NCBI GenBank assembly: GCA_964019135.1
Contig: OZ025258.1
Span: 7,707,961-7,771,960, forward strand
Reading direction: 5' to 3'
Length of the DNA stretch: 64,000 bases
From: Arenicola marina
Taxonomy: Eukaryota; Annelida; Polychaeta; Arenicolidae
In this document: piece after piece, positions 3,483-64,000 of the stretch
How positions within the stretch are numbered: position 1 is the first letter of the stretch
Layout of the letters: the number at the start of each line of letters is the position of its first letter
The notes under the pieces: generated by a model
Told to the model about the DNA's origin: nothing
The model's input: only the letters and a program-made list of their open reading frames with translations
The model's database searches: none
Position numbers and translations under genes: made by a program

Positions 3483-3981
3483 GATTCAATATACCAATAG
3501 TGGGTGAAACCTTATTTCTATTAATAACCAATTTCAATACACCAATAATGGGTGAAACCTTATTTCTAGCAAGGCGGCGCACTTGTGTTTTATCGAACGT
3601 ATATACAGTTGACCACCATGCCGGGCTAGTCCCGGTCTGGCGCTACGTAAAAGTAACTTATGTACAGCTGGATAGATACTCGCAAACATCAGTATTGTAT
3701 TACATCCGCGCAGATACATCATGGCTAGCGTCACAGACATCACTTGTATAACATTATATATTTACACACTCATTCCGATGATTGGGAAGGCAACCAAGGC
3801 AGACCCTTCCCACAGTTACACAGAATTGCTAATGATTGGGAAGGCAACCAAAGCTGACCTACCCATTTGTGAATGAGGGTGGTGACTAGCATGAGGCAAT
3901 GTATGAGACTTAGATGGAGTGGCGTGTAGTGATGGGTGCCCTCCTCATAAGGAGTGCCAGGAGGTGGTGGGGAGGAGGTGG
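3483..3981 (-). repeat. YR element 3' repeat B2
   Basis: This is the outermost 3' repeat of the element, matching B1 (about 4,283-4,910) over nearly its full length. Its outer edge carries two copies of a roughly 49-bp subrepeat (ACCAATTTCAATACACC type); B1 carries three. B2 is shorter because B1 holds an additional duplicated stretch near 4,690-4,795. The boundary with A2 falls where similarity to A1 begins, at 3,982. Confidence 0.8.
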
Positions 3982-4225
3982 AAATTTCGATGTTTCTTGC
4001 TGAAGTAGCAAAATGGCGGACGGACAACAAGTGCGCGTGGGTCATGTGACGCCGCGTGACTCATCGCCCACGTGACCTAAATCCCGGGGGCTCACGATGG
4101 GGGGACGGGAGGACCCGGGGCTCCAGGTGGGGGGAATATACTTAGGAGAGGCCCCCTGCGAGTAGGGGGTTATAACTTCTATCGTTGCTGCACAACAAAA
4201 GAAATTATGGCACATAATTTCATAT
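3982..4225 (-). repeat. YR element internal repeat A2
   Basis: This 244-bp segment is a near-identical direct copy of A1 at 10,552-10,796. It includes the shared ends AAATTTCGATG and CATAATTTCATAT. Lying between B1 and B2, it completes the A1-ORFs-B1-A2-B2 plan of Ngaro-type elements. Differences from A1 cluster near 4,150-4,175; elsewhere only a couple of substitutions are visible. Confidence 0.88.
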
Positions 4226-4282
4226 TTGTTCCGCTAGCAACGACAGAACACGATAACTGGGTTTATAATTTTTTTTATTAAT

Positions 4283-4910
4283 AACCAATTTCAATATACC
4301 AATAGTGGTGAACCTTATTTCTATTAATAACCGATTTCAATATACCAATAGTGGGTGAAACCTTATTTCTATTATAACCAATTTCAATACACCAATAGTG
4401 GGTGAAACCTTATTTCTAGCAAGGCGGCCGCCTGGCGGCGCACTTGTGTTTTATCGAACGTATATACAGTTGACCGCCATGCCGGGCTAGTCCCGGTCTG
4501 GCGCTACGTAAAAGTAACTTATGTACAGCTGGATAGATACACATCAGTATTGTATTACATCCGCGCAGATACATCATGGCTAGCGTCACAGACATCACTT
4601 GTATAACATTATATATTTACACGTTTATTCCGATGATTGGGAAGGCAACCAAGGCCGACCCTTCCCACAGTTACACAGAATTGCTACTGATTGGGAAGGC
4701 AACCAAAGCTGACCTTCCCCCCTGTCCACCGTGCCGGGCTAGCCCCGGCATGGGGGTGACCTTTGCCTGACTATGAGGGTGACCTGGGCAGGCAACCAAA
4801 GCTGACCTACCCATTTGTGAATGAGGGTGGTGACTAGCATGAGACAATGTATGAGACTTAGGTGGAGTGGCGTGTAGTGATGGGTGCCCTCCTCATAAGG
4901 AGCGCCAAGA
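4283..4910 (-). repeat. YR element 3' repeat B1
   Basis: This is a direct copy of B2, lying just downstream of the recombinase frame in element orientation. It starts with three roughly 49-bp subrepeats and contains an extra duplicated stretch relative to B2 (around 4,690-4,795, motif GGCAACCAAAGCTGACC). About 55 bases (4,226-4,282) separate it from A2. Confidence 0.8.
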
Positions 4911-5032: not shown

Positions 5033-5956
5033 TTAGGAGGACTTAGAGGGTGAGGGCGTAGGAAGCAAGATCTGTTTAGGACGTATGTATGCCGTGTAGG
5101 CGTTAGATTTCCAGCGTCCGGCTTGTTTAATGGTTGCGTGCGATATGTTGTCCTGTGCAAGCTGAGTGGCGCGGCCGATTCGGAACGAGTGAGTGTTGTA
5201 TCGGTGTTCCGGAAGCCCTGCTAATCGCAAGGTAAGCTTCAGGAAGTCGACCACTTGTTGGCGATCGAGTGGGCGGCCGGCCAGGGTAAGGAAGAGTGGA
5301 CCCGGGGTGCCGGGTCGTACCTCCAGGTAGGAACGGAGGCTAATGATAGGGCACGAGCCCGACCCAGGAACCCCCTGGACCGTGATCTGTGTGTTTTCCC
5401 CTGTGCTGTGTTTGTAGGAGTGGAATGTGATGCCCATGTGTTGGGCACTGGAGGCCGAAGGAGGCATGTTAATGTGTTCCAGGCGCAGTATGTTATCTGC
5501 ATTATTGTTGGAAATGACGAGTTCCCCGATTCTAAGGCAAGCGTGAAAAGCCAGCGTGAATAGCGCCTTGAATAGCAGGCCCTGGTACCGCGATGCGGTA
5601 GCGTATTTCATTTGGGATAGCAATGATTCCAACACATCGGCTGTTATCGGCAGCAGCCGTTGTGTCGGCTGAGTGGTCTTTTTTATGCCGATTAGCATTC
5701 GTTTGATGAGGAATTTAGCTGTGGGGTCCTGGTGTGATCTGATTTTGTGAGCGAACGACACTGCCGTTATGTATGTGAGAATGGTGGAGTACCTTTTTCC
5801 AGTTTTGTATAAGTGGGCAATGAATGAAGCTATTGCTTGTGGCTGTAGTGGAAGTTTCACGTTGTGCCTGAGTGTGTTCCGGATAAAGTGAAGACACTGT
5901 TGCCAGTGGTGCTGGTATGCCCTGACAGGGGACTTCGTCAGTGATCTGCCGACCAA
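5033..5956 (-). CDS. Tyrosine recombinase of the YR retrotransposon
   Basis: A 307-residue protein of the tyrosine recombinase/phage integrase family. The N-terminal part (about residues 1-95) looks like the SAM-like core-binding domain. The catalytic domain follows with the expected R-H-R-Y set: arginine in LRIGEL (about residue 142), HSFRIGRAT (about 257-265), then AGRWKSNAYTAYIR with the nucleophilic tyrosine near residue 288. In DIRS-order elements this enzyme replaces the DDE integrase and joins circular cDNA to the genome. It follows the RT/RNase H region by about 155 bases on the same strand and is followed by repeat B1. Length is usual for the family. This frame is uninterrupted. Confidence 0.9.
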   Translation of the reverse strand: MVGRSLTKSPVRAYQHHWQQCLHFIRNTLRHNVKLPLQPQAIASFIAHLYKTGKRYSTILTYITAVSFAHKIRSHQDPTAKFLIKRMLIGIKKTTQPTQRLLPITADVLESLLSQMKYATASRYQGLLFKALFTLAFHACLRIGELVISNNNADNILRLEHINMPPSASSAQHMGITFHSYKHSTGENTQITVQGVPGSGSCPIISLRSYLEVRPGTPGPLFLTLAGRPLDRQQVVDFLKLTLRLAGLPEHRYNTHSFRIGRATQLAQDNISHATIKQAGRWKSNAYTAYIRPKQILLPTPSPSKSS

Positions 5957-6110
5957 TGTGTCTATTGTAGACTGAAGTTCTTGGGCAGGAACCTGTCGGG
6001 TATAGGCTCCGGCAGGGGCTTCATGCTGTACTGACGCAGCAATTGTGGAGTCACCTGTGAACGAGATATGGCATCTGCTAGTACATTTGTCACGCCCGGA
6101 ATGTGTACCG

Positions 6111-7629
6111 CTAAGAACTTGGTATTATTGCGCAAAATAGTCTTACGATAGCCATGATCTTCGGGTCACGGGACGTTTGTGTCTTAAGAATGTGTGTTAC
6201 GGCGATACTATCGCAGTGAAAAGTGACAACCGAGTTACGCAGTTTGTGTCCGAAAACTTGCAGTAAGAGAAGGATGGGGGAGAGCTCGAGGATTGTAATG
6301 TGGCAAGATGCCCATGTGGGGGGCCATGTTCCTTGTATCCAAGAAGACCCGAAGGTCGCGCCGTATCCAGAGCCGGAAGCATCTGAGTACATGTTTATAG
6401 CGGGGGATGTAGCGAGAGAAAGGTGCGATATGATGGAGACCCCGTTGTAGCACTTCAAGAAATCGTGCCACGTCCGGAGGTCTTGCTTAGCTGGCAATGT
6501 GAGCCTCACGTAGTGTGAGAGACATGTTACCCCTTTTGACAGGTCAATGAGGCGGCGCAAGAATGGGCGGCCCGGCTGTACGACCGACGTGGCAAAGTGG
6601 AGTTTTCCTACAAGGGACTGGAGCTCCCCTAGGGTGATCTTATGGGAATCCGTGTATTTGTCAATGTCCGAAGCGTAGCGCTCGAGTTTTTCCTTTTGCA
6701 GTCGGGCCTGGAGTTTTTTCGTATCCAGTTCGATGCCTAGGAATGTAATGGTCTGCGCGGGTCCTACGGTCTTCTCCGGTGCTAAAGGCACCCCAATTTC
6801 ATTTGTAAGCTGCACGAAGGCTGATAATTGTGCCTGGCAACCTGTCTGTGTAGGGTGTAAGAAGAGGAAGTCATCTAATATTTTGGTTGTGTGACTGATG
6901 AGAGAACATTTCAAAGATGGCACATGCTGCTGCGCACCCCATGGGGAGGCATTTGTCATAGTAGTACGCACCTTCCCAGGTGAACCCCATCAGATGGTAT
7001 TGTGACGGGTGAAGGGGTAGAAGCCTAAAAGCGTTGCTTATGTCAGATTTTGCCATGAAGACGTGGCCTGTGAGGTGGTGTAAGTGTTGAATGTGTTGAA
7101 TAGCGTTGGATATGTTCTGGTATGTAACAGTGGTGGTTTGTGAGGGTATGCTTTTGTTGACCGACCGGGAGTCGTAGGGATAAGACAGGTTGTGTACGAG
7201 CCTGTATTTACCAGGTGTTGTCTTTTCCCGCAGTGCTAATGGGGAACACTTGAAGTGATGGAAGGATGGTTTGTTGAAGGGGCCAGCTATACGCCCAGCC
7301 TCCAACTCCTGTTTGATTTTTGCTCTGACAGCTGCGGGATTAAGGAGAGCTGACTGTGAATTCTTGGAGCGTATATCACCCTGTTCCCCTTCAAACCCAA
7401 CCTTGAAACCTGAGGTAAAGCCGCTTTCTATGCGGGCTTTGAGCTGAGGTGGGTATTCCTCTAGGTGATGGGCAAGCGCCCTAATCTTTACGGGCGTGGG
7501 TAGCGGGGGGACGGGTGACTGCGGGGCGTGAGGTGGGGCATTTGAAGGCGGGGTGTGACTGCTGGCAACGGTAACAACTGTGCTTAAACCTGCATTGGCC
7601 ACGCGCGATGCATCTCTGTTCGCGGGCAT
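6111..7629 (-). mobile_element. pol region: reverse transcriptase and RNase H
   Basis: This is the polymerase region of the YR retrotransposon. RT landmarks include a SPLALREK segment with KYRLVHNLS, then SDISNAFRLLPL, the LPMGCAAACAIFE block, and LDDFLF as the metal-binding DD motif. An FLGIELD segment marks the RT thumb boundary. RNase H follows with YSDASGSGYGA, the glutamate in ITILELSP and HCDS. In family members this enzyme copies the element RNA and removes the template strand. It overlaps the end of the gag-like region (7,481-8,576) and lies upstream of the recombinase. It is treated here as part of a fossil element; its frame status is counted in the element entry. Confidence 0.88.
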
Positions 7630-8576
7630 GGAATGCGAAGCAGTAGCCTGGTGGGGTGGCGTTGCGATGTTGTGTGAAAGTGTGAGTTTGGCTGAGGGGG
7701 TTTGATCTGTTGTTGTAGTTGTTGTTATAAAATAACCAATTCGCTCCCTGCTCCGCGAGGTTCTTCACGTCCCTTGCATAAGTGAGGATGTCGTTGAGCT
7801 GCCCTGGGAACTTTTGGACGTATATAGCGGTAAATATGTCCCAGGTCCGTCCCCAATCCTGTATGGTAGGAGCCCGGTGCCGGGCCTGGTTAAACTTAGG
7901 CGCCGGCTGTTGATGGTCCATTTCTAGCGATAGGGTGTAGGTGGCCTGCTGATGGGGGTTCAGTAGGTCATTAACGTCAATGTACTTATGGCACCAGATT
8001 TTTTGTTTGACTTTGAGGTCAATGTTTTGACCGATGGCTTGCCGACACCACCGGGCGTGGTCGTATCGGTTCCTGGCACAACACGGCCCCAAGGGGTAGC
8101 TCACCTTGGTCGCCCTCGGCGTGGCAGCTGGTGAAGATGTGGTCGATGCCGTCATCCGCAGCTGGGTGGCTGTCCTCCTCTGGGTCGTGGTCGCCGTTCA
8201 ATGGCGAGCCGATTGCCGCGGGTGCTGGGCCCTGCGTCATGCAGCCCCCCATGTCTGGGAGGGCGGAGGTGGAGGCGGCCCCTGGCGTTGGGTTATTGCC
8301 TTGGGCTGCGGTCAATGACGCTGCGAGCGAGGCCATGTTCTCCATACACGTCATCACTTTTGACAACATGTCAGACGTCTTGCGCAGGACGTCATCCGCT
8401 GCGCTGCCAGTGGTCGCTTGTGTGGTGGCTGCCTGGCTGGCTGTGGCAAGCGGGGCGCTGGTTGCCTTGCTGCCAGTAGTCGACGGGGTGCTGGCCTTCT
8501 TGCCACGGATGCGCCCTCTCTTTCGGCTGGACTGTGGTTGCGGGGCCGCATCCTGCGGCTTGCGTTTGGGTGCCAT
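7481..8576 (-). mobile_element. gag-like region with zinc fingers
   Basis: This is the first coding region of the YR retrotransposon. It begins with a basic, low-complexity stretch (MAPKRKPQ, then RKRGRIRGKK) that would bind nucleic acid or act as a nuclear signal, followed by Ala/Thr-rich sequence. Its distal part ends in cysteine/histidine motifs: a C-x5-C-x3-H type followed by CYRCQQSHPAFKC (C-x2-C-x3-H-x4-C). Paired fingers of this kind are typical of DIRS/Ngaro Gag proteins, which package element RNA. The array of palindromes lies just upstream (8,750-9,490). Recognition rests on position and zinc fingers rather than sequence recall. Confidence 0.75.
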
Positions 8577-8749
8577 CTGAGGTACTGTTAAAGAAAATGC
8601 AGAAGCACAGTAACAGCGAATAAAACTGGTGGAGCCTGGTTTAGTGTTGTATTAGCGATGTGGCCGGTGGCCACTTTACGTATGCGGCAGATTGCTTGGG
8701 ACATTGAGAAACAAGTTGCATGCCTAGTCAAAAACAATAAATTCTTACC

Positions 8750-9490
8750 GCCCTTGAGTCACCTATAGTGACAGGGGAACGTGCAGCATTGAGGCAGTTA
8801 TAGGGTTACAACATACGTTGGACCACTTGCGCGAATGATCAGTCACAGTACTTTTACGCTGCCTTGGGTCACGAATACCGTGACAGGCCAGACTTTGTGT
8901 CTGATGTGGGATATTAATGGCCTTGGGCCACATTGCATAGCATGCCAGGCCCAGTACACAATCTAAGTTAGTTCCCATGCCTTGGATCACAAGTAGAGTG
9001 ACAGGCGAAAGTGTGGTTTGAAATGGGATGTAGCAACCAATTCTTACCTGCCTTGAGTCACCCATACGGTGACAGGCCAAACGTCCAGCGTTGAGGCAAT
9101 TATACTGTTGCAACATACGTTGGGCCACTTGCGCAGTGGCAAGCGAATGATCAGTCCCAGTACTTTAACGCTGCCTTGGGTCACAAATACAGTGACAGGC
9201 CAGACTCTGTGTGTAATGTGGGATATTAATGGCCTTGGGTCACATTGCATAGCATGACAGGCCCAGTACGCAATCTAACTTAGTTCCCATGCCTTGGATC
9301 ACAAGTAGAGTGACAGGCGAAAATGTGGTTTGAAATGGGATGTGGCTTGCCTTGGGTCACGTTGCGTAGCGTGACAGGTGAACGAGTCGACTATGGGGCC
9401 TTTTCATATGCCTTGTGTCATGACTGAAATGACAGGCGACACAATTATGGGATATTACCAGCCTGGGATCAGCTTGCATGGGATGACCGG
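8750..9490. repeat. Array of 11 imperfect palindromes, 59-bp spacing
   Basis: Eleven copies of a 27-31 bp imperfect palindrome start near 8,750, 8,861, 8,920, 8,979, 9,050, 9,172, 9,231, 9,290, 9,349, 9,410 and 9,461. The plus-strand form is GCCTTGGGTCAC, 7-10 variable bases, then GTGACAGGC. GCCT pairs with AGGC and GTCAC with GTGAC, leaving a small bulge. Six of the ten spacings are exactly 59 bp. A block of about 300-311 bp holding the first four copies is duplicated in tandem. The array lies in the leader between A1 and gag, so the element RNA would carry a ladder of hairpins. Possible roles are RNA packaging, binding sites for the recombinase or an element protein, or transcriptional control; none is shown by sequence alone. 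Confidence 0.85.
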
Positions 9491-10551
9491 CCCACTATTG
9501 CAGCTTAGACATTGTCCCGTGCCTAAGCCATATCGAGGCTGAAGTCTCATGCTTGAAGACTCTGCCCCAAAAAGTGGTGCTGAAGCCAAATATGTATATT
9601 GACTCTGCTGAGGGTATTATGACGGAAGCCACAGGAGACTCTGTCACTCATCGAGGCTGAAGTCTCATGTTAGAAACTGACCCCAGAAGAATAATGCTGT
9701 CACCGTGCAGACAGATACGGTTTATCAGGTGTAGCAACCGTCAGGTTGTCCTAAGCGCACAGCAGAAAGCATACAGCTGTATAGCTATGTAATAATAGAG
9801 GAGTGAGCGTAACAGCTGGGGTCACATAAAGCAAAAAGTGGTAAACATACTATGTGTATCAGTGCGCATTGATTAAAACTCCCGCAAAAGAAAAAGGGGG
9901 AGGGGGGGGGGGTAAATATGAAAACGTAAACGGAATAAAGGAAAACGCAGGCAGAAACAAGAAACGAAGAATCCGAGCAGGGGACAAGCGACATAGTGCG
10001 AAACAAGTATTCCCAGTACACAGCCGTAGGCGAGAGATCATCACTGGCAGGCCGGTGACCGCAAAGCGGTGCCGCATGCGAGACCATTTAAGAAGTACCA
10101 AGGGAGCCTGACGCAGGGGCCTAACGCTGGGCGGCACTGGCTGTCAAAGCCGGCGCGGAGTCTCAAAGCCGCGCCACACACCGCTTGGTGAGACACACTC
10201 CCAGCGGCCCGGCCGAGCCCGCCTGTGTGGCGTGGCAGCCCGGCGCCCCGAGGCGAGAAAACGGCTAGCGCCGCACGGCGCGTGGCAAGATATGTTAAGT
10301 AGGAGGGTGTGACTGTGACCGGATTCTGGATCATAGAGATTGGGCTTTGGTCAGCATCAACGCTAAACGGCGAGCCGCGGCTCTGTGGTTGCGCAAATAT
10401 ATTTCGAAACCTGACAGAAAGGAATGACCGACGTAACATACGGAAAAAAAACATGTCTGTATCTACGTACCTAGCAGGGGATTTCCGTTGACTTTCTGCC
10501 TTGTAATGCGCAATAAACGAGGTAGTGTGATGATTTTTCCGTGTGCCAACA
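9491..10551 (-). other. YR element leader, with CpG-rich segment
   Basis: This part of the element leader has no convincing frame. It starts with a repeated motif (ATCGAGGCTGAAGTCTCATG type near 9,533 and 9,652). A CpG- and GC-rich segment at about 10,040-10,290 contains several short inverted repeats. The position just inside A1 and the CpG richness would suit a TATA-less promoter for the minus-strand element transcript, but no core motif is decisive. A 197-residue minus-strand frame across 10,041-10,634 enters A1 and is judged fortuitous. Confidence 0.5.
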
Positions 10552-10796
10552 AAATTTCGATGTTTCTTGCTGAAGTAGCAAAATGGCGGACGGACAACAA
10601 GTGCGCGTGGGTCATGTGACGCCGTGTGACTCATCGCCCACGTGACCTAAATCCCGGGGGCTCACGATGGGGGCACGGGAGGACCCGGGGCTCCAGGTGG
10701 GGGGAATATACTTAGGAGAGACCCCCTAGGTGGTAGGTGGTAATAACTTCTATCGTTGCTGCACAACAAAAGAAATTATGGCACATAATTTCATAT
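10552..10796 (-). repeat. YR element 5' repeat A1
   Basis: This 245-bp repeat at the 5' end of the element (minus-strand reading) matches A2 (3,982-4,225) at about 95% by eye. Host-like sequence matching copy B resumes immediately after it with TTTCGCACTT (compare 48,215). In Ngaro-type elements A1 begins the transcript template and A2 supplies the matching segment needed to close the circle. Confidence 0.88.
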
Positions 10797-13019: not shown

Positions 13020-13335
13020 AGACACAATAGAATATTTTATAGAATTCTAGAGTATGCTATAGAATTGTATAGTAATAGTACCTTTACATAATTCTATAGT
13101 AATTACTATTGTAATCAATAGAATTTACCATAGTAATTTAAAATACTATAGTACTTTATAGAATTCTATAGTACCTATAGAATTCTATAGTAATTACTAT
13201 AGTAATCTATAGAATTGACCATAGAAATTTAAAATAATATAGTACTCTTATGGAATTCTATAGTACCTATAAAATTCTGTAGCAATTACTATAGTAGTCT
13301 ATAGAAATCTATACAATTCTATAGAATATTTTTTA
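13020..13335. repeat. A/T-rich CTATAG palindromic tandem repeat
   Basis: About three copies of a 91-bp unit (similar points near 13,090, 13,181 and 13,272) are built almost only from ATAGAATTCTAT and CTATAG-type palindromes. The perfect 18-bp palindrome CTATAGTAATTACTATAG occurs inside. The whole stretch could fold into nested hairpins or cruciforms. It is absent from copy B and may be part of a MITE or an AT minisatellite. Confidence 0.75.
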
Positions 13336-21711: not shown

Positions 21712-21889
21712 AGGGCCTGATGGCAACCAGTGGAGTGGGCGGCAGGGCTGATGGCTACCAGTGGGGCGGGCGGCAGGGCTGATGGCTACCAGTGGATTAG
21801 GCGGCAGGGCTGATGGCTACCATTTGGACGGGCGGCAGGGCTGATGGCCACCATTGGGACGGGCGGCAGGGCTGATGGCCACCAGCGGG

Positions 21890-24800
21890 GCTAGCGGCAG
21901 GGCTGATGGTTACCAGGACGGCGGGCGGCAGGGCTGATGGCTACCGGTGGGGCGGGCGGCAGGGCTAATGGCTACCAGTGGGGCGGGCGGCAGGGCTGAT
22001 GGCTACCAGTGGAGGGGGAGGCAGGGCTGATGGCTGCCAGTGGGGCGGGCGGCAGGGCTGATGGCTACCAGCGGGGCGGGCGGCAGGGCTGATGGCTACC
22101 AGTGGAGGGGGCGGCAGGGCTGATGGCTACCAGTGGAGCGGGCGGCAGGTCTGATGGCTGCCAGTGGGGCGGGCGGCAAGGCTGATGGCTACCAGTGGGG
22201 CGGGCGGCAGGGCTGATGGCTACCAGTGGGGCGGGCGGCAGGGCTGATGGTTACCAGGAGGGCGGGCGGCAGGGCTGATGGCTACCGGTGGGGCGGGCGG
22301 CAGGGCTAATGGCTACCAGTGGGGCGGGCGGCAGGGCTGATGGCTACCAGTGGAGGGGGAGGCAGGGCTGATGGCTGCCAGTGGGCGGGCGGCAGGGCTG
22401 ATGGCTACCAGCGGGGCGGGCGGCAGGGCTGATGGCTACCAGTGGAGGGGGCGGCAGGGCTGATGGCTACCAGTGGAGAGCTGAGGGCTGCCAGTGGGGC
22501 GGGCGGCAGGGCTGATGGCTACCAGTGGAGAGGGCGGCAGGGCTGATGGCTGCCAGTGGGGCGGGCGGCAGGGCTGATGGCTACCAGTGGGGCGGGCGGC
22601 AGGGCTGATGGCTACCAGTGGGGCGGGCGGCAGGGCTGATGGCTACCAGTGGAGGGGGCGGCAGGGCTGATGGCTACCAGTAGAGAGCTGATGGCTACCA
22701 GTGGAGGGGGCGGCAGGGCTGATGGCTACCAGTGGAGAGCTGATGGCTACCAGTGGAGGGGGCGGCATGGCTGATGGCTACTAGTGGGGCGGGCGGCAGG
22801 GCTGATGGCTACCAGTGGGGCGGGCGGCAGGGCTGATGGCTACCAGTGGGGCGGGCGGCAGGGCTGATGGCTACCAGTGGAGAGCTGATGGCTACCAGTG
22901 GAGGGGGCGGCAGGGCTGATGGCTACTAGTGGGGCGGGCGGCAGGGCTGATGGCTACCAGTGGGGCGGGCGGCAGGGCTGATGGCTACCAGTGGGGCGGG
23001 CGGCAGGGCTGATGGCTACCAGTGGGGCGGGCGGCAGGGCTGATGGCTACCAGTGGGGCGGGCGGCAGGGCTGAGGGCTGCCAGTGGGGCGGGCGGCAGG
23101 GCTGATGGCTACCAGTGGAGAGGGCGGCAGGGCTGATGGCTGCCAGTGGGGCGGGCGGCAGGGCTGATGGCTACCAGTGGGGCGGGCGGCAGGGCTGATG
23201 GCTACCAGTGGGGCGGGCGGCAGGGCTGATGGCTACCAGTGGAGGGGGCGGCAGGGCTGATGGCTACCAGTAGAGAGCTGATGGCTACCAGTGGAGGGGG
23301 CGGCAAGGCTGATGGCTACCAGTGGAGAGCTGATGGCTACCAGTGGAGGGGGCGGCATGGCTAATGGCTACTAGTGGGGCGGGCGGCAGGGCTGATGGCT
23401 ACCAGTGGGGCGGGCGGCAGGGCTGATGGCTACCAGTGGGGCGGGCGGCAGGGCTGATGGCTACCAGTGGAGAGCTGATGGCTACCAGTGGAGGGGGCGG
23501 CAGGGCTGATGGCTACTAGTGGGGCGGGCGGCAGGGCTGATGGCTACCAGTGGGGCGGGCGGCAGGGCTGATGGCTGCCAGTGGGGCGGGCGGCAGGGCT
23601 GATGGCTGCCAGTGGGGCGGACGGCAGGGCTGATGGCTGCCAGTGGGGCGGGCGGCAGAGCTGATGGCTGCCAGTGGGGCGGGCGGCAGGGCTGATGGCT
23701 ACTAGTGGGGCGGGCGGCAAGGCTGATGGCTGCCAGTGGGGCGGGCGGCAGGGCTGATGGCTGCCAGTGGGGCGGGCGGCAGGGCTGATGGCTGCCAGTG
23801 GGGCGGGCGGCAGGGCTGATGGCTGCCAGTGGGGCGGGCGGCATGGCTGATGGCTACTAGTGGGGCGGGCGGCAGGGCTGATGGCTACCAGTGGGGCGGG
23901 CGGCAGGGCTGATGGCTACTAGTGGGGCGGGCGGCAGGGCTGATGGCTACCAGTGGGGCGGGCGGCAGGGCTGATGGCTACCAGTGGGGCGGGCGGCAGG
24001 GCTGATGGTTACCAGTGGGGCGGGCGGCAGGGCTGATGGCTACCAGTGGGGCGGGCGGCAGGGCTGAGGGCTACCAGTGGGGCGGGCGGCAGGGCTGATG
24101 GCTACCAGTGGAGAGGGCGGCAGGGCTGATGGCTACCAGTGGGGCGGGCGGCAGGGCTGATGGCTACCAGTGGGGCGGGCGGCAGGGCTAATGGCTACCA
24201 GTGGAGGGGGCGGCAGGGCTGATGGCTACCAGTAGAGAGCTGATGGCTACCAGTGGAGGGGGCGGCAGGGCTGATGGCTACCAGTGGAGAGCTGATGGCT
24301 ACCAGTGGAGGGGCGGCAGGGCTGATGGCTACCAGTGGAGCGGGCGGCAGGGCTGATGGCTGCCAGTGGGGCTTGCGGCAGGGCTGATGGCTGCCAGTGG
24401 GGCGGGCGGCAGGGCTGATGGCTACCAGTGGAGAGGGCGGCAGGGCTGATGGCTGCCAGTTGGGCGGGCGGCAGGGCTGATGGCTACCAGTGGGGCGGGC
24501 GGCAGGGCTGATGGCTACCAGTGGAGGGGGCGGCAGGGCTGATGGCTACTAGTGGGGCGGGCGGCAGGGCTGATGGCTACCAGTGGGGCGGGCGGCAGGG
24601 CTGATGGCTGCCAGTGGGGCGGGCGGCAGGGCTGATGGCTGCCAGTGGGGCGGGCGGCAGGGCTGATGGCTGCGAGTGGGGCGGGCGGCAGGGCTGATGG
24701 CTGCCAGTGGGGCGGGCGGCAGGGCTGATGGCTACTAGTGGGGCGGGCGGCAAGGCTGATGGCTGCCAGTGGGGCGGGCGGCAGGGCTGATGGCTGCCAG

Positions 24801-25052
24801 TGGGGCGGGCGGCAGGGCTGATGGCTGCCAGTGGGGCGGGCGGCAGGGCTGATGGCTGCCAGTGGGGCGGGCGGCAGGGCTGATGGCTACTAGTGGGGCG
24901 GGCGGCAGGGCTGATGGCTACCAGTGGGGCGGGCGGCAGGGCTGATGGCTACTAGTGGGGCGGGCGGCAGGGCTGATGGCTACCAGTGGGGCGGGCGGCA
25001 GGGCTGATGGCTACCAGTGGGGCGGGCGGCAGGGCTGATGGCTGCCAGTGGG
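21890..25052. repeat. 3,163-bp higher-order duplication, copy 1
   Basis: This segment is repeated in tandem at 25,053-28,212 with an offset of exactly 3,163 bp wherever I checked: GGGCTAGCGG ends at 21,900 and 25,063, the rare TGCGAG unit is at about 24,672 and 27,835, the CAGTTGGGC unit at 24,461 and 27,624, and the identical 120-codon frames at 23,482 and 26,645. I saw no difference between the copies at the points compared, so the duplication is very recent or an assembly artefact. Confidence 0.9.
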
Positions 25053-28000
25053 GCTAGCGGCAGGGCTGATGGTTACCAGGACGGCGGGCGGCAGGGCTGA
25101 TGGCTACCGGTGGGGCGGGCGGCAGGGCTAATGGCTACCAGTGGGGCGGGCGGCAGGGCTGATGGCTACCAGTGGAGGGGGAGGCAGGGCTGATGGCTGC
25201 CAGTGGGGCGGGCGGCAGGGCTGATGGCTACCAGCGGGGCGGGCGGCAGGGCTGATGGCTACCAGTGGAGGGGGCGGCAGGGCTGATGGCTACCAGTGGA
25301 GCGGGCGGCAGGTCTGATGGCTGCCAGTGGGGCGGGCGGCAAGGCTGATGGCTACCAGTGGGGCGGGCGGCAGGGCTGATGGCTACCAGTGGGGCGGGCG
25401 GCAGGGCTGATGGTTACCAGGAGGGCGGGCGGCAGGGCTGATGGCTACCGGTGGGGCGGGCGGCAGGGCTAATGGCTACCAGTGGGGCGGGCGGCAGGGC
25501 TGATGGCTACCAGTGGAGGGGGAGGCAGGGCTGATGGCTGCCAGTGGGCGGGCGGCAGGGCTGATGGCTACCAGCGGGGCGGGCGGCAGGGCTGATGGCT
25601 ACCAGTGGAGGGGGCGGCAGGGCTGATGGCTACCAGTGGAGAGCTGAGGGCTGCCAGTGGGGCGGGCGGCAGGGCTGATGGCTACCAGTGGAGAGGGCGG
25701 CAGGGCTGATGGCTGCCAGTGGGGCGGGCGGCAGGGCTGATGGCTACCAGTGGGGCGGGCGGCAGGGCTGATGGCTACCAGTGGGGCGGGCGGCAGGGCT
25801 GATGGCTACCAGTGGAGGGGGCGGCAGGGCTGATGGCTACCAGTAGAGAGCTGATGGCTACCAGTGGAGGGGGCGGCAGGGCTGATGGCTACCAGTGGAG
25901 AGCTGATGGCTACCAGTGGAGGGGGCGGCATGGCTGATGGCTACTAGTGGGGCGGGCGGCAGGGCTGATGGCTACCAGTGGGGCGGGCGGCAGGGCTGAT
26001 GGCTACCAGTGGGGCGGGCGGCAGGGCTGATGGCTACCAGTGGAGAGCTGATGGCTACCAGTGGAGGGGGCGGCAGGGCTGATGGCTACTAGTGGGGCGG
26101 GCGGCAGGGCTGATGGCTACCAGTGGGGCGGGCGGCAGGGCTGATGGCTACCAGTGGGGCGGGCGGCAGGGCTGATGGCTACCAGTGGGGCGGGCGGCAG
26201 GGCTGATGGCTACCAGTGGGGCGGGCGGCAGGGCTGAGGGCTGCCAGTGGGGCGGGCGGCAGGGCTGATGGCTACCAGTGGAGAGGGCGGCAGGGCTGAT
26301 GGCTGCCAGTGGGGCGGGCGGCAGGGCTGATGGCTACCAGTGGGGCGGGCGGCAGGGCTGATGGCTACCAGTGGGGCGGGCGGCAGGGCTGATGGCTACC
26401 AGTGGAGGGGGCGGCAGGGCTGATGGCTACCAGTAGAGAGCTGATGGCTACCAGTGGAGGGGGCGGCAAGGCTGATGGCTACCAGTGGAGAGCTGATGGC
26501 TACCAGTGGAGGGGGCGGCATGGCTAATGGCTACTAGTGGGGCGGGCGGCAGGGCTGATGGCTACCAGTGGGGCGGGCGGCAGGGCTGATGGCTACCAGT
26601 GGGGCGGGCGGCAGGGCTGATGGCTACCAGTGGAGAGCTGATGGCTACCAGTGGAGGGGGCGGCAGGGCTGATGGCTACTAGTGGGGCGGGCGGCAGGGC
26701 TGATGGCTACCAGTGGGGCGGGCGGCAGGGCTGATGGCTGCCAGTGGGGCGGGCGGCAGGGCTGATGGCTGCCAGTGGGGCGGACGGCAGGGCTGATGGC
26801 TGCCAGTGGGGCGGGCGGCAGAGCTGATGGCTGCCAGTGGGGCGGGCGGCAGGGCTGATGGCTACTAGTGGGGCGGGCGGCAAGGCTGATGGCTGCCAGT
26901 GGGGCGGGCGGCAGGGCTGATGGCTGCCAGTGGGGCGGGCGGCAGGGCTGATGGCTGCCAGTGGGGCGGGCGGCAGGGCTGATGGCTGCCAGTGGGGCGG
27001 GCGGCATGGCTGATGGCTACTAGTGGGGCGGGCGGCAGGGCTGATGGCTACCAGTGGGGCGGGCGGCAGGGCTGATGGCTACTAGTGGGGCGGGCGGCAG
27101 GGCTGATGGCTACCAGTGGGGCGGGCGGCAGGGCTGATGGCTACCAGTGGGGCGGGCGGCAGGGCTGATGGTTACCAGTGGGGCGGGCGGCAGGGCTGAT
27201 GGCTACCAGTGGGGCGGGCGGCAGGGCTGAGGGCTACCAGTGGGGCGGGCGGCAGGGCTGATGGCTACCAGTGGAGAGGGCGGCAGGGCTGATGGCTACC
27301 AGTGGGGCGGGCGGCAGGGCTGATGGCTACCAGTGGGGCGGGCGGCAGGGCTAATGGCTACCAGTGGAGGGGGCGGCAGGGCTGATGGCTACCAGTAGAG
27401 AGCTGATGGCTACCAGTGGAGGGGGCGGCAGGGCTGATGGCTACCAGTGGAGAGCTGATGGCTACCAGTGGAGGGGCGGCAGGGCTGATGGCTACCAGTG
27501 GAGCGGGCGGCAGGGCTGATGGCTGCCAGTGGGGCTTGCGGCAGGGCTGATGGCTGCCAGTGGGGCGGGCGGCAGGGCTGATGGCTACCAGTGGAGAGGG
27601 CGGCAGGGCTGATGGCTGCCAGTTGGGCGGGCGGCAGGGCTGATGGCTACCAGTGGGGCGGGCGGCAGGGCTGATGGCTACCAGTGGAGGGGGCGGCAGG
27701 GCTGATGGCTACTAGTGGGGCGGGCGGCAGGGCTGATGGCTACCAGTGGGGCGGGCGGCAGGGCTGATGGCTGCCAGTGGGGCGGGCGGCAGGGCTGATG
27801 GCTGCCAGTGGGGCGGGCGGCAGGGCTGATGGCTGCGAGTGGGGCGGGCGGCAGGGCTGATGGCTGCCAGTGGGGCGGGCGGCAGGGCTGATGGCTACTA
27901 GTGGGGCGGGCGGCAAGGCTGATGGCTGCCAGTGGGGCGGGCGGCAGGGCTGATGGCTGCCAGTGGGGCGGGCGGCAGGGCTGATGGCTGCCAGTGGGGC

Positions 28001-28212
28001 GGGCGGCAGGGCTGATGGCTGCCAGTGGGGCGGGCGGCAGGGCTGATGGCTACTAGTGGGGCGGGCGGCAGGGCTGATGGCTACCAGTGGGGCGGGCGGC
28101 AGGGCTGATGGCTACTAGTGGGGCGGGCGGCAGGGCTGATGGCTACCAGTGGGGCGGGCGGCAGGGCTGATGGCTACCAGTGGGGCGGGCGGCAGGGCTG
28201 ATGGCTGCCAGT
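25053..28212. repeat. 3,163-bp higher-order duplication, copy 2
   Basis: This is the second copy, matching 21,890-25,052 unit variant by unit variant. Similarity ends near 28,212, where copy 1 would re-enter the GGGCTAGCGG variant and copy 2 instead continues with ordinary GGGCGGGC units. Confidence 0.9.
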
Positions 28213-31163
28213 GGGGCGGGCGGCAGGGCTGATGGCTGCCAGTGGGGCGGGCGGCAGGGCTGATGGCTACTAGTGGGGCGGGCGGCAGGGCTGATGGCTA
28301 CCAGTGGGGCGGGCGGCAGGGCTGATGGCTGCCAGTGGGGCGGGCGGCAGGGCTGATGGCTGCCAGTGGGGCGGGCGGCAGGGCTGATGGCTGCCAGTGG
28401 GGCGGGCGGCAGGGCTGATGGCTACCAGTGGAGAGGGCGGCAGGGCTGATGGCTGCCAGTTGGGCGGGCGGCAGGGCTGATGGCTACCAGTGGGGCGGGC
28501 GGCAGGGCTGATGGCTACCAGTGGAGGGGGCGGCAGGGCTGATGGCTACCAGTGGGGCGGGCGGCAGGGCTGATGGCTACCAGTGGGGCGGGCGGCAGGG
28601 CTGATGGCTACCAGTGGAGAGCTGATGGCTACCAGTGGAGGGGGCGGCAGGGCTGATGGCTACTAGTGGGGCGGGCGGCAGGGCTGATGGCTACCAGTGG
28701 GGCGGGCGGCAGGGCTGATGGCTACCAGTGGGGCGGGCGGCAGGGCTGATGGCTGCCAGTGGGGCGGGCGGCAGGGCTGATGGCTGCCAGTGGGGCGGGC
28801 GGCAGGGCTGATGGCTGCCAGTGGGGCGGGCGGCAGGGCTGATGGCTACCAGTGGAGAGGGCGGCAGGGCTGATGGCTGCCAGTTGGGCGGGCGGCAGGG
28901 CTGATGGCTACCAGTGGGGCGGGCGGCAGGGCTGATGGCTACCAGTGGAGGGGGCGGCAGGGCTGATGGCTACCAGTGGGGCGGGCGGCAGGGCTGATGG
29001 CTACCAGTGGGGCGGGCGGCAGGGCTGATGGCTACCAGTGGAGAGCTGATGGCTACCAGTGGAGGGGGCGGCAGGGCTGATGGCTACTAGTGGGGCGGGC
29101 GGCAGGGCTGATGGCTACCAGTGGGGCGGGCGGCAGGGCTGATGGCTACCAGTGGGGCGGGCGGCAGGGCTGATGGCTACCAGTGGGGCGGGCGGCAGGG
29201 CTGAGGGCTACCAGTGGGGCGGGCGGCAGGGCTGAGGGCTACCAGTGGGGCGGGCGGCAGGGCTGATGGCTACCAGTGGAGAGGGCGGCAGGGCTGATGG
29301 CTGCCAGTGGGGCGGGCGGCAGGGCTGATGGCTACCAGTGGGGCGGGCGGCAGGGCTGATGGCTACCAGTGGGGCGGGCGGCAGGGCTGATGGCTACCAG
29401 TGGAGGGGGCGGCAGGGCTGATGGCTACCAGTAGAGAGCTGATGGCTACCAGTGGAGGGGGCGGCAGGGCTGATGGCTACCAGTGGAGAGCTGATGGCTA
29501 CCAGTGGAGGGGCGGCAGGGCTGATGGCTACCAGTGGAGCGGGCGGCAGGGCTGATGGCTGCCAGTGGAGCTTGCGGCAGGGCTGATGGCTGCCAGTGGG
29601 GCGGGCGGCAGGGCTGATGGCTACCAGTGGAGAGGGCGGCAGGGCTGATGGCTGCCAGTTGGGCGGGCGGCAGGGCTGATGGCTACCAGTGGGGCGGGCG
29701 GCAGGGCTGATGGCTACCAGTGGAGGGGGCGGCAGGGCTGATGGCTACCAGTGGGGCGGGCGGCAGGGCTGATGGCTACCAGTGGAGGGGGCGACAGGGC
29801 TGATGGCTGCCAGTGGGGCTTGCGGCAGGGCTGATGGCTGCCAGTGGGACGGGCGGCAGGGCTGATGGCTGCCAGTGGGGCGGGCGGCAGGGCTGATGGC
29901 TACCAGTGGGGCGGGCGGCAGGGCTGATGGCTACCAGAGGAGGGGGCGGCAGGGCTGATGGCTACCAGTGGAGGGCGCGGCAGGGCTGATGGCTACCAGT
30001 GGGGCGGGCGGCAGGGCTGATGGCTGCCAGTGGGGCTTGCGGCAGGGCTGATGGCTGCCAGTGGGGCCGGCGGCAGGGCTGATGGCTGCCAGTGGGGCGG
30101 GCGGCAGGGCTGATGGCTGCCAGTGGGGCGGGCGGCAGGGCTGATGGCTACCAGTGGGGCGGGCGGCAGGGCTGATGGCTACCAGTGGGGCGGGCGGCAG
30201 GGCTGATGGCTACCAGTGGGGCGGGCGGCAGGGCTGATGGCTACCAGCGGGGCGGGCGGCAGGGCTGATGGCTACCAGTGGGGCGGGCGGCAGGGCTGAT
30301 GGCTACCAGCGGGGCGGGCGGCAGGGCTGATGGCTACCAGCGGGGCGGGCGGCAGGGCTGATGGCTACCAGAGGAGGGGGCGGCAGGGCTGATGGCTACC
30401 AGTGGAGGGCGCGGCAGGGCTGATGGCTACCAGTGGGGCGGGCGGCAGGGCTGATGGCTGCCAGTGGGGCTTGCGGCAGGGCTGATGGCTGCCAGTGGGG
30501 CGGGCGGCAGGGCTGATGGCTGCCAGTGGGGCGGGCGGCAGGGCTGATGGCTGCCAGTGGGGCGGGCGGCAGGGCTGATGGCTACCAGTGGGGCGGGCGG
30601 CAGGGCTGATGGCTACCAGTGGGGCGGGCGGCAGGGCTGATGGCTACCAGTGGGGCGGGCGGCAGGGCTGATGGCTACCAGCGGGGCGGGCGGCAGGGCT
30701 GATGGCTACCAGTGGGGCGGGCGGCAGGGCTGATGGCTACCAGCGGGGCGGGCGGCAGGGCTGATGGCTACCAGCGGGGCGGGCGGCAGGGCTGATGGCT
30801 ACCAGTGGGGCGGGCGGCAGGGCTGATGGCTACCAGTGGGGCGGGCGGCAGGGCTGATGGCTGCCAGTGGGGCGGGCGGCAGGGCTGATGGCTACCAGTG
30901 GGGCGGGCGGCAGGGCTGATGGCTACCAGTGGGGCGGCCGGCAGGGCTGATGGCTACCAGTGGGGTGGGCTGCAGGGCTGATGGCTACCAGTGGGGCGGG
31001 CGGCAGGGATGATGGCTACCAGTGGGGCGGGAGGCAGGGCTGATGGCTGCCAGTGGGGCGGGCGGCAGGGCTGATGGCTACCAGTGGAGGGGGCGGCATG
31101 GCTGATGGCTACCAGCGGGGCGGGCGGCAGGGCTGATGGCTGCCAGCGGGGCGGGCGGCAGGT

Positions 31164-36078: not shown

Positions 36079-36287
36079 TGTCCCAGGGGTAACCAGTGGC
36101 TGATTCAATTAGAGAACGGAGCCATGCCCCAGGGGTAACCATTACCTGATTCAATTAGAGAACGAATCCATGTCCCATGGGTAACTAGTGGCTGATTCAA
36201 TTAGAGAAAGGAGCCATGTCCCAAGGGTAACCAGCGGCTGATTCAATTAGAGAACGGAGCCATGTACCATGGGTAACCAGTGGCGGT
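36079..36287. repeat. 46-bp minisatellite next to E1
   Basis: Between four and five tandem units of 46 bp; ATTAGAGAA recurs at 36,108, 36,154, 36,200 and 36,246. The core is GGGTAACCAGTGGCTGATTC. The same repeat occurs at 63,805-64,000 next to unit E4, so it belongs to the E-unit structure. Confidence 0.85.
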
Positions 36288-63311: not shown

Positions 63312-64000
63312 GAAAGAAATGACAGCATGTCTCCCCTGCCTCCGGCTAGCAGACGCGGAGTCAGTGAACAAAAAGATGAAATAAAAAGAGGAGCGACAAC
63401 ATGGAAAGAATATAAGGAACAGACTAAGAGGGAAACACGGAAGGGAAACAAGAGACGCAACAAACCAACTGGCTGACGGCCAGGTGGAGACAGACCAACC
63501 ACTTGTAGGGGAGTGCCAGAAACCCACCTAGTATGGCTACGCCCAGAGGGTAAAAGGATAAAAGCATTGTACTGCTTGTTGGCGCAAAGGTATTGGGGGC
63601 AGTTTTTTCCCGTCCCGTTATTATTGCTAAAAGGAGTGCAATGGTTAAAACAATAATGTTCATGTTTTGTCCTACGTATCTGCCATAAATAAACATGTAC
63701 GACATAGCCACCCGCAGCAAAAGCCACGGTTGTATCTTAAGAGCTCATTTTAAGTATCAAGTAGACCTGCAGGATATGTACAGCCAGAACTAAATTGAAA
63801 TATTGATCGGAGCCATGTCCCAGTGATAACGAGTGGCTGATTCAACCAGAGAAAGGAGATATGTTCCAGTTTTAACCAGTGGCTGATTCAATTAGAGAAC
63901 AGAGCCGTGGCCCAGGGTAAAACCAGTGGTTGATCCAATTAGAGAACGGAGCCATTTCCCATGGGTAACCAGTGGCTGATTGAATTAGAGAACGAAGCCG
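63312..64000 (+). repeat. Complex repeat unit E4, running off the window
   Basis: This starts like E2 and E3 (CGAAAGAAATGACAGC, CTAGCAGACG) and keeps the CTGGCTGACGGCCAGGTGG segment. From 63,805 it passes into the 46-bp minisatellite also seen at 36,079-36,287. The 211-codon minus-strand frame at 63,092-63,727 is not preserved in E3 or E1 and is judged fortuitous. Confidence 0.8.
63805..64000. repeat. 46-bp minisatellite, open at the window edge
   Basis: At least four units with AATTAGAGAACRGAGCC and AACCAGTGGCTGATT cores, the same family as 36,079-36,287. The array continues beyond the last base. Confidence 0.85.

Follow-up and report, generated by a model that had tools for sequence, protein, structure and literature searches.

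The leader of a Ngaro-type retrotransposon in the lugworm Arenicola marina holds a real, conserved and recurring array of palindromes whose arms pair. The array lies between the A1 repeat and gag, keeps a single orientation common to all its units, recurs in other copies and in related families, and shows both arm conservation and compensatory changes. Reading from sequence, we tentatively favor the interpretation that selection maintains this ladder as a series of bulged stem-loops, which would act as repeated protein-binding sites on the element's RNA.

The analysis began from the window, a 64,000-nucleotide stretch of contig OZ025258.1, in which a minus-strand element runs from 10796 to 3485 in the order A1, leader, gag, RT, YR and B1-A2-B2 (Table 1). 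An initial annotation made from the letters had called this host Ngaro-type, and split direct repeats in the arrangement A1-[ORFs]-B1-A2-B2, together with a YR gene and an RT gene whose PF00078 match falls below the curated cut-off, bear that out. The same plan, A1-[ORFs]-B1A2B2, is given for Ngaro elements in the available text of PMC8547959. A general Pfam scan of five ORF stretches (E 0.001) gave no methyltransferase match; DIRS elements have such a domain according to the part of PMC4157794 consulted. The repeat plan and the gag-like, RT and YR ORFs thus support a Ngaro-type assignment within the Ngaro superfamily (DIRS order), from whose examined accounts the leader hairpin ladder of the window element is absent. 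The leader itself is about 2.0 kb long.

Table 1. Features of the element and its leader, in window positions
Feature	Position	Strand	Remarks
A1 repeat, element 5' end	10552..10796	-	outer end is the palindrome GAAATTATG-GCA-CATAATTTC; 96.3% identity to A2
Ladder, 11 clear bulged palindromes and a degenerate twelfth	8751..9491	-	between A1 and gag
Unit 12, decayed, loop 10	9461..9491	-	
Unit 11, TGTCAT/ATGAC compensated pair, loop 7	9410..9437	-	
Unit 10, loop 10	9349..9379	-	
Unit 9, loop 7, GGATCAC/GTGAC, one-sided change	9291..9318	-	
Unit 8, loop 10	9232..9262	-	
Unit 7, loop 7	9173..9200	-	
Unit 6, degenerate, GGCCAC/GTGGC compensated pair	9117..9144	-	not listed in the initial annotation
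Unit 5, loop 7	9050..9077	-	
Unit 4, loop 7, GGATCAC/GTGAC	8979..9006	-	
Unit 3, loop 10; two changes absent from other family 1 copies	8920..8950	-	
Unit 2, loop 7	8861..8888	-	
Unit 1, loop 5, CCC/GGG compensated pair	8751..8776	-	
Duplicated block, copy 1 (units 1-4)	8740..9034	.	87.7% identity to 9039-9346
Duplicated block, copy 2 (units 5-9)	9039..9346	.	
Gag-like ORF from its ATG (at 8576)	8019..8576	-	no Pfam match
Reverse transcriptase (RT) ORF	6871..7764	-	PF00078, E 1.1e-5, 25.7 bits; below curated cut-off 29.6
Tyrosine recombinase (YR) ORF	5033..6121	-	PF00589, E 3.1e-8, 34 bits; above cut-off 27.1
B1 repeat	4269..4910	-	sequence comparison
A2 repeat	3982..4225	-	96.3% identity to A1
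B2 repeat, element 3' end	3485..3962	-	sequence comparison

All eleven palindromes that the annotation had placed upstream of gag (upstream being the minus direction) were recovered, each of the form GCCTTGGGTCAC-loop-GTGACAGGC with a 3-nt bulge, and a degenerate twelfth unit, ACGTTGGGCCAC-TTGCGCA-GTGGCAAGC, was found at 9117. Three additional, TGG-like bases in the left arm give each hairpin a one-sided bulge, so that in the sense (minus-strand) RNA a unit reads GCCUGUCAC-loop-GUGACCCAAGGC, with a 5-bp inner stem, a 4-bp outer stem and the 3-nt bulge between them. Loops measure 5, 7 or 10 nt, with 7 and 10 alternating in part of the array. Spacings between the starts of the clear palindromes are 110, 59, 59, 71, 123, 59, 59, 58, 61 and 51, the 123 resolving into 67 + 56 once the 9117 unit is counted; exactly 59 bp therefore occurs in four of ten spacings and not the six first reported, and two of those four arose through block duplication. 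That duplication, described in the annotation as a block of four units, was detected by BLAST, whereas a tandem-repeat finder did not report the whole array, which is too diverged. The label "CRISPR-like" did not hold, and a CRISPR array was ruled out, since the repeats are degenerate and the spacers recur within the array (three repeat families, D1, D3 and D5).

When the leader was used as a query against the 867-Mb genome, 32 matches were returned and 20 copies (L009-L028) were fetched, 19 of which have the ladder, a count that is non-independent since the leader was the query. The exception, L020 (C613), is without the part corresponding to window 7679-9385, comprising the array, gag and part of RT; its flank is identical to that of L013 (C373), which has the array, and the gap probably arose when one of two copies of a single insertion later underwent a deletion. 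The occurrence of one insertion flank on two contigs, C373 and C613, would fit haplotypes or a segmental duplication with internal deletion. Unit number differs between copies. A second family, with YR identity of 83-84%, has 7 to 14 units per copy and includes two members (L026 and L027) whose A repeats are identical over 242 bp, so they were recently inserted.

An independent test came from loci picked by YR position only (L029-L032 and L036-L045). A related ladder was present in four of four loci at 52-57% YR identity, with the motif GCCGTGCGCCAC-loop-GTGACTGGC or GTGACTAGC and with spacers unalike. These ladders advance in 47-bp steps in L029 and in steps of about 62 bp in L030-L032, which share one unit type, and a single scan counted 27, 13, 10 and 12 units in L029, L030, L031 and L032, respectively. 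Among the ten loci at 31-49% YR identity the motif array was found in none, and L039 had one single match. Other tandem arrays of at least 250 bp occur in seven of these ten (L036-L041 and L045, with none in L042-L044), about 2-4.5 kb upstream of the YR genes and so at about the ladder's place; their units of 20, 38, 9, 41, 65 and about 113 bp are mutually unlike, apart from one unit common to L040 and L045. Outside the element, such an array was found in 5 of 22 segments of the window, all of them one 31-bp minisatellite. The recurrence that the annotation had proposed testing thus extends, with the ladder, its step of about 59 bp and paired arm changes, to other copies, and with other steps to more distant families, and stops short of the 31-49% loci. 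The outcomes that it had named as refuting it, an array missing from copies or arms drifting unpaired, were not encountered in the family or in its closer relatives.

The degenerate pattern GCCNTGNGYCAC-N3-14-GTGRCNGGC matched 128 times genome-wide versus 2 for its backward reading, showing that the ladder is not a product of chance. Among 100 pattern matches listed, 67 lie within 15 kb of a YR whose strand and side are as expected; no same-strand YR was found either for the remaining 33, which include known copies without a YR gene and a satellite on C20, in a test that used 47 of 117 YR matches and whose same-strand neighbor count skipped matches already assigned. The C20 satellite (L033 and L046, 6.8645-6.8737 Mb) has a 37-bp period, extends for several kb and has a unit, GCCATGTGTCAC-N10-GTGGCTGGT, that matches the ladder motif. 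No YR was seen in the adjacent 5-kb stretch, which looks like more satellite, and we treated the satellite as unlinked, its resemblance to the ladder being either accidental or a sign that it arose from a leader array. It was included in the YR-neighbor test, the wobble count and the 47/62/37-bp covariation set described below, and left out of the motif column counts, the inner-stem test and the test of all distinct arms.

Other repeats in the window include a 9.4-kb minisatellite at 21712-31162 (31-bp unit, about 312 copies), an A+T-rich array at 13034-13324 with short palindromic pieces (CTATAGAATTCTATAG-like) and a 91-bp higher period, and one 46-bp unit that forms two arrays of different phase, 27 kb apart, at 36079-36284 and 63808-63999.

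Comparison of the window ladder with diverged copies showed arms changing at about half the rate of spacers. Differences from L018 numbered 24/252 in arms, 84/435 in spacers and 16/94 in loops, and those from L019 were 24/243, 73/436 and 15/93. Against family 2, for which the alignments were partly seeded on the arms and may join unlike slots, the counts were 33/208, 118/300 and 34/77 for L023 and 29/210, 120/287 and 32/77 for L026. Recent copies gave no clear difference between arms and spacers (L010, 6/252 and 7/439; L014, 8/241 and 16/439; L017, 9/252 and 23/439). Since the constraint appears in old and not in recent comparisons, it seems to act on the arms as long as the lineage is transposing and to lapse once a copy has inserted. 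The motifs of different families agree at 17 of 21 positions, and T and G in the bulge hardly vary despite being unpaired. Family 1 spacers compared with the 62-bp spacer scored 5-7, like shuffles (mean 5.5, maximum 11).

Compensatory changes were counted in a hand-read table of 23 slots drawn from families 1 and 2. Being block duplicates, slots 7-9 were merged with 2-4; the table leaves aside the 47- and 62-bp families, units past the AACAACA slot (present in L014 and L019) and, in L025-L027, the second AACAACA unit. Of its 207 cells, 29 were changed, 9 of them on both sides and 20 on one side (10 left, 10 right). Six of the nine two-sided changes led to another Watson-Crick pair, which substantiates the claim that the arms pair beyond chance: six or more were reached in 1 of 20000 trials when columns were redealt, in 2 when whole arms were redealt and in 23 under the strictest null, in which changes were moved within a slot. 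When decayed or possibly related slots were omitted, in three different ways, 4 compensated changes remained each time, a number reached in 17, 24 and 8 of 20000 trials. Examples of compensated changes are G-C to C-G at 8751, C-G to T-A at 9410, T-A to C-G both at 9117 and in family 2 (possibly a single event) and, also in family 2, an outer-stem change from C-G to T-A. The TGTCAT/ATGAC pair singled out in the annotation is truly paired, as are two that it had not listed, CCC/GGG (8751) and GGCCAC/GTGGC (9117). Its other example, GGATCAC/GTGAC, is not a paired shift, as A faces C and forms at best G.U in minus-strand RNA.

Arm-shuffling tests gave a mixed picture. For recurring arms in families 1 and 2, 239/297 paired versus 217.8 expected (sd 3.8), and the true partners ranked 92 of 20000. 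The 47/62/37-bp set, in which 10 of 23 rows come, by difference, from the unlinked satellite, gave 150/207 versus 151.3 and ranked 11524 of 20000. All distinct 47- and 62-bp arms, in rows that include one-off, decayed and perhaps spurious units, gave 237/342 versus 222.6 (sd 3.9). We placed most weight on the 23-slot test because related units can beat arm shuffles without selection.

Among non-Watson-Crick cells, those that would form G.U numbered 80 in sense RNA versus 85 in antisense in the overall count, satellite included, and whole-array folding energy was lower in antisense in four of four arrays. Folding z-scores were mostly unremarkable, with 1 of 12 window units below -2 in sense. 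Inner-stem probabilities in sense versus antisense were alike in families 1 and 2 (0.59 v 0.60, 0.38 v 0.44, 0.46 v 0.40) and differed in the 62- and 47-bp families (0.58, 0.63 and 0.80 v 0.14, 0.14 and 0.43), because in the latter the commonest units contain pairs that can form G.U in the sense strand alone. This modeled bias lends modest support to RNA, with DNA site arrays a close rival. Stem scores for units of the 47-, 62-, 37-, 20-, 38-, 9-, 41- and 65-bp arrays fell within the range of 25 shuffles; in family 1 the 9410 unit exceeded all 25 and the 9173 unit did not, and the L041 unit exceeded all of just 8 shuffles run. The idea that all leader arrays are hairpin ladders was not supported, as most array units score within the shuffle range.

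We lean, with reservation, toward RNA hairpins because, relative to L018 and L019, arms have changed at about half the pace of spacers, because six of nine two-sided changes are Watson-Crick, and because an arm-to-arm distance that ranges from 4 to 12 is tolerable as a hairpin loop. The near-invariant T and G of the bulge point the same way, as do the 17 of 21 motif positions kept in four of four loci at 52-57% YR identity with unmatched spacers and the 62- and 47-bp inner stem found mainly in sense RNA. In this mechanism, the sense leader RNA would fold into bulged stem-loops that act jointly as repeated sites for a single protein. The best candidate would be Gag or RT of the element itself, binding genomic RNA during packaging or assembly; many weak sites would provide avidity, and unit number would change through duplication and deletion. 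Counting against it are the lack of wobble polarity, the lower predicted antisense energies and the stems of families 1 and 2 modeled as alike on both strands, as well as the negative ranks of the 47/62/37-bp covariation set and the preponderance of one-sided changes. More doubtfully, this Ngaro clade (families 1 and 2 and the relatives at 52-57% YR identity) may carry a multi-site RNA packaging or assembly signal of about 7 to more than 20 bulged hairpins, an old selected motif of both sequence and structure.

By analogy with gypsy, the ladder might instead work as duplex DNA, with its units bound by a protein of the host or of the element and the whole serving as an enhancer, silencer or insulator, a possibility that we regard as doubtful yet serious. 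Conservation of arm sequence and bulge bases would suit it, as would a strand polarity that is weak or absent overall. The A repeat (10552-10796 and 3982-4225) also contains a block of about 50 bp kept between families 1 and 2, GTGGGTCATGTGACGCC...GTGACTCAT...CCCACGTGACC, with three copies of GTGAC, the core of the ladder arm, one CACGTG and one TGACTCA, the last two of which match the motifs named E-box and AP-1. This block could be a promoter, and one GTGAC-reading factor may serve both A repeat and ladder. The ladder's position further matches that of the gypsy Su(Hw) sites as given in the consulted part of PMC2374998. However, an arm distance of 4 to 12 is odd for a dimer site, and different compensated pairs within one array suggest that pairing there outweighs base identity. 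A neutral leader minisatellite, generated by template switching in reverse transcription with the palindrome as a by-product, perhaps of hairpin-templated correction from arm to arm, is unlikely. It would explain why copies differ in unit number and why seven of ten loci of other YR families carry tandem arrays of other kinds in that position, most of them no more palindromic than usual, and tandem repeats are common in plant Ogre element UTRs in the portion of PMC7004042 consulted. Neutrality does not sit well with arms conserved relative to spacers and loops in old (though not recent) comparisons, with a motif that survives at 52-57% YR identity without spacer likeness, or with retention of a bulge that arm-to-arm correction would erase.

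Two further readings give the palindromes a role in DNA. The paired form could be a cruciform or single-stranded cDNA used in replication, second-strand priming or circle formation, which pairing without strand polarity would allow, and YR elements are believed to have circular DNA intermediates. The stems are short, under RNA parameters those of the 62- and 47-bp families form chiefly on the sense strand, and the available evidence places the ladder at no priming site, making this reading improbable. Lastly, inverted arms flanking a short center have the look of a YR core site, which raises the idea of an attC-like array of recombinase sites. We consider this very improbable: the centers vary in length, and the units are unlike the terminal palindrome GAAATTATG-3 nt-CATAATTTC at the element's outer end (window 10770-10796), so the shared recombinase-site motif that the annotation had suggested seeking in the terminal repeats did not emerge, and the array was rejected as a set of such sites. 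The terminal palindrome is the same in family 2 (L026 and L027) and occurs in a slightly shorter form in L030-L032; kept across families, it is itself a candidate recombinase site.

Integron attC sites resemble the ladder in form, being imperfect hairpins that have extrahelical bases and accompany a tyrosine recombinase, but the ladder has no core-site likeness to the element's end, and the number 59 is a coincidence of names. The nearest precedents seen, from partial texts, are the gypsy insulator (PMC2374998) and Ogre tandem repeats (PMC7004042). In the former, the 5' untranslated region of Drosophila gypsy contains 12 Su(Hw) sites, which shares with the ladder a cluster of about a dozen degenerate sites in a retroelement leader; the gypsy sites are 12-bp, AT-flanked, not described as hairpins in PMC2374998 and span 340 bp, whereas the ladder covers about 740 and its binder is hypothetical. 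Plant Tat/Ogre LTR retrotransposons likewise carry variable tandem arrays in a noncoding part, but these are 3' UTR repeats of hypervariable sequence in the text consulted (PMC7004042), unlike the ladder's conserved motif and paired arms. The main texts of four DIRS/Ngaro papers (PMC3266345, PMC3783388, PMC4157794, PMC9210276) are silent on tandem arrays, hairpins, palindromes and satellites, and the consulted text of the Cafeteria Ngaro paper (PMC8547959) on tandem repeats, hairpins and palindromes. Leader arrays in YR elements were untreated, judging by titles and the starts of abstracts, in the open literature searched, which mostly excludes subscription papers and has Repbase reports outside its scope. 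This silence is weak evidence of novelty. An account of how YR retrotransposon RNA is marked, packaged or regulated was likewise absent from the parts of the literature examined.

The presence of unlike arrays at about one place in several other YR families raises the question of why these leaders collect arrays. Within the Ngaro clade, a repeated motif with compensatory changes provides a concrete cis-element, a candidate site for Gag, a host DNA-binding protein or the recombinase. If the packaging or assembly reading is true, the ladder would, to our knowledge, be the first multi-hairpin cis-element of this kind in YR retrotransposons.
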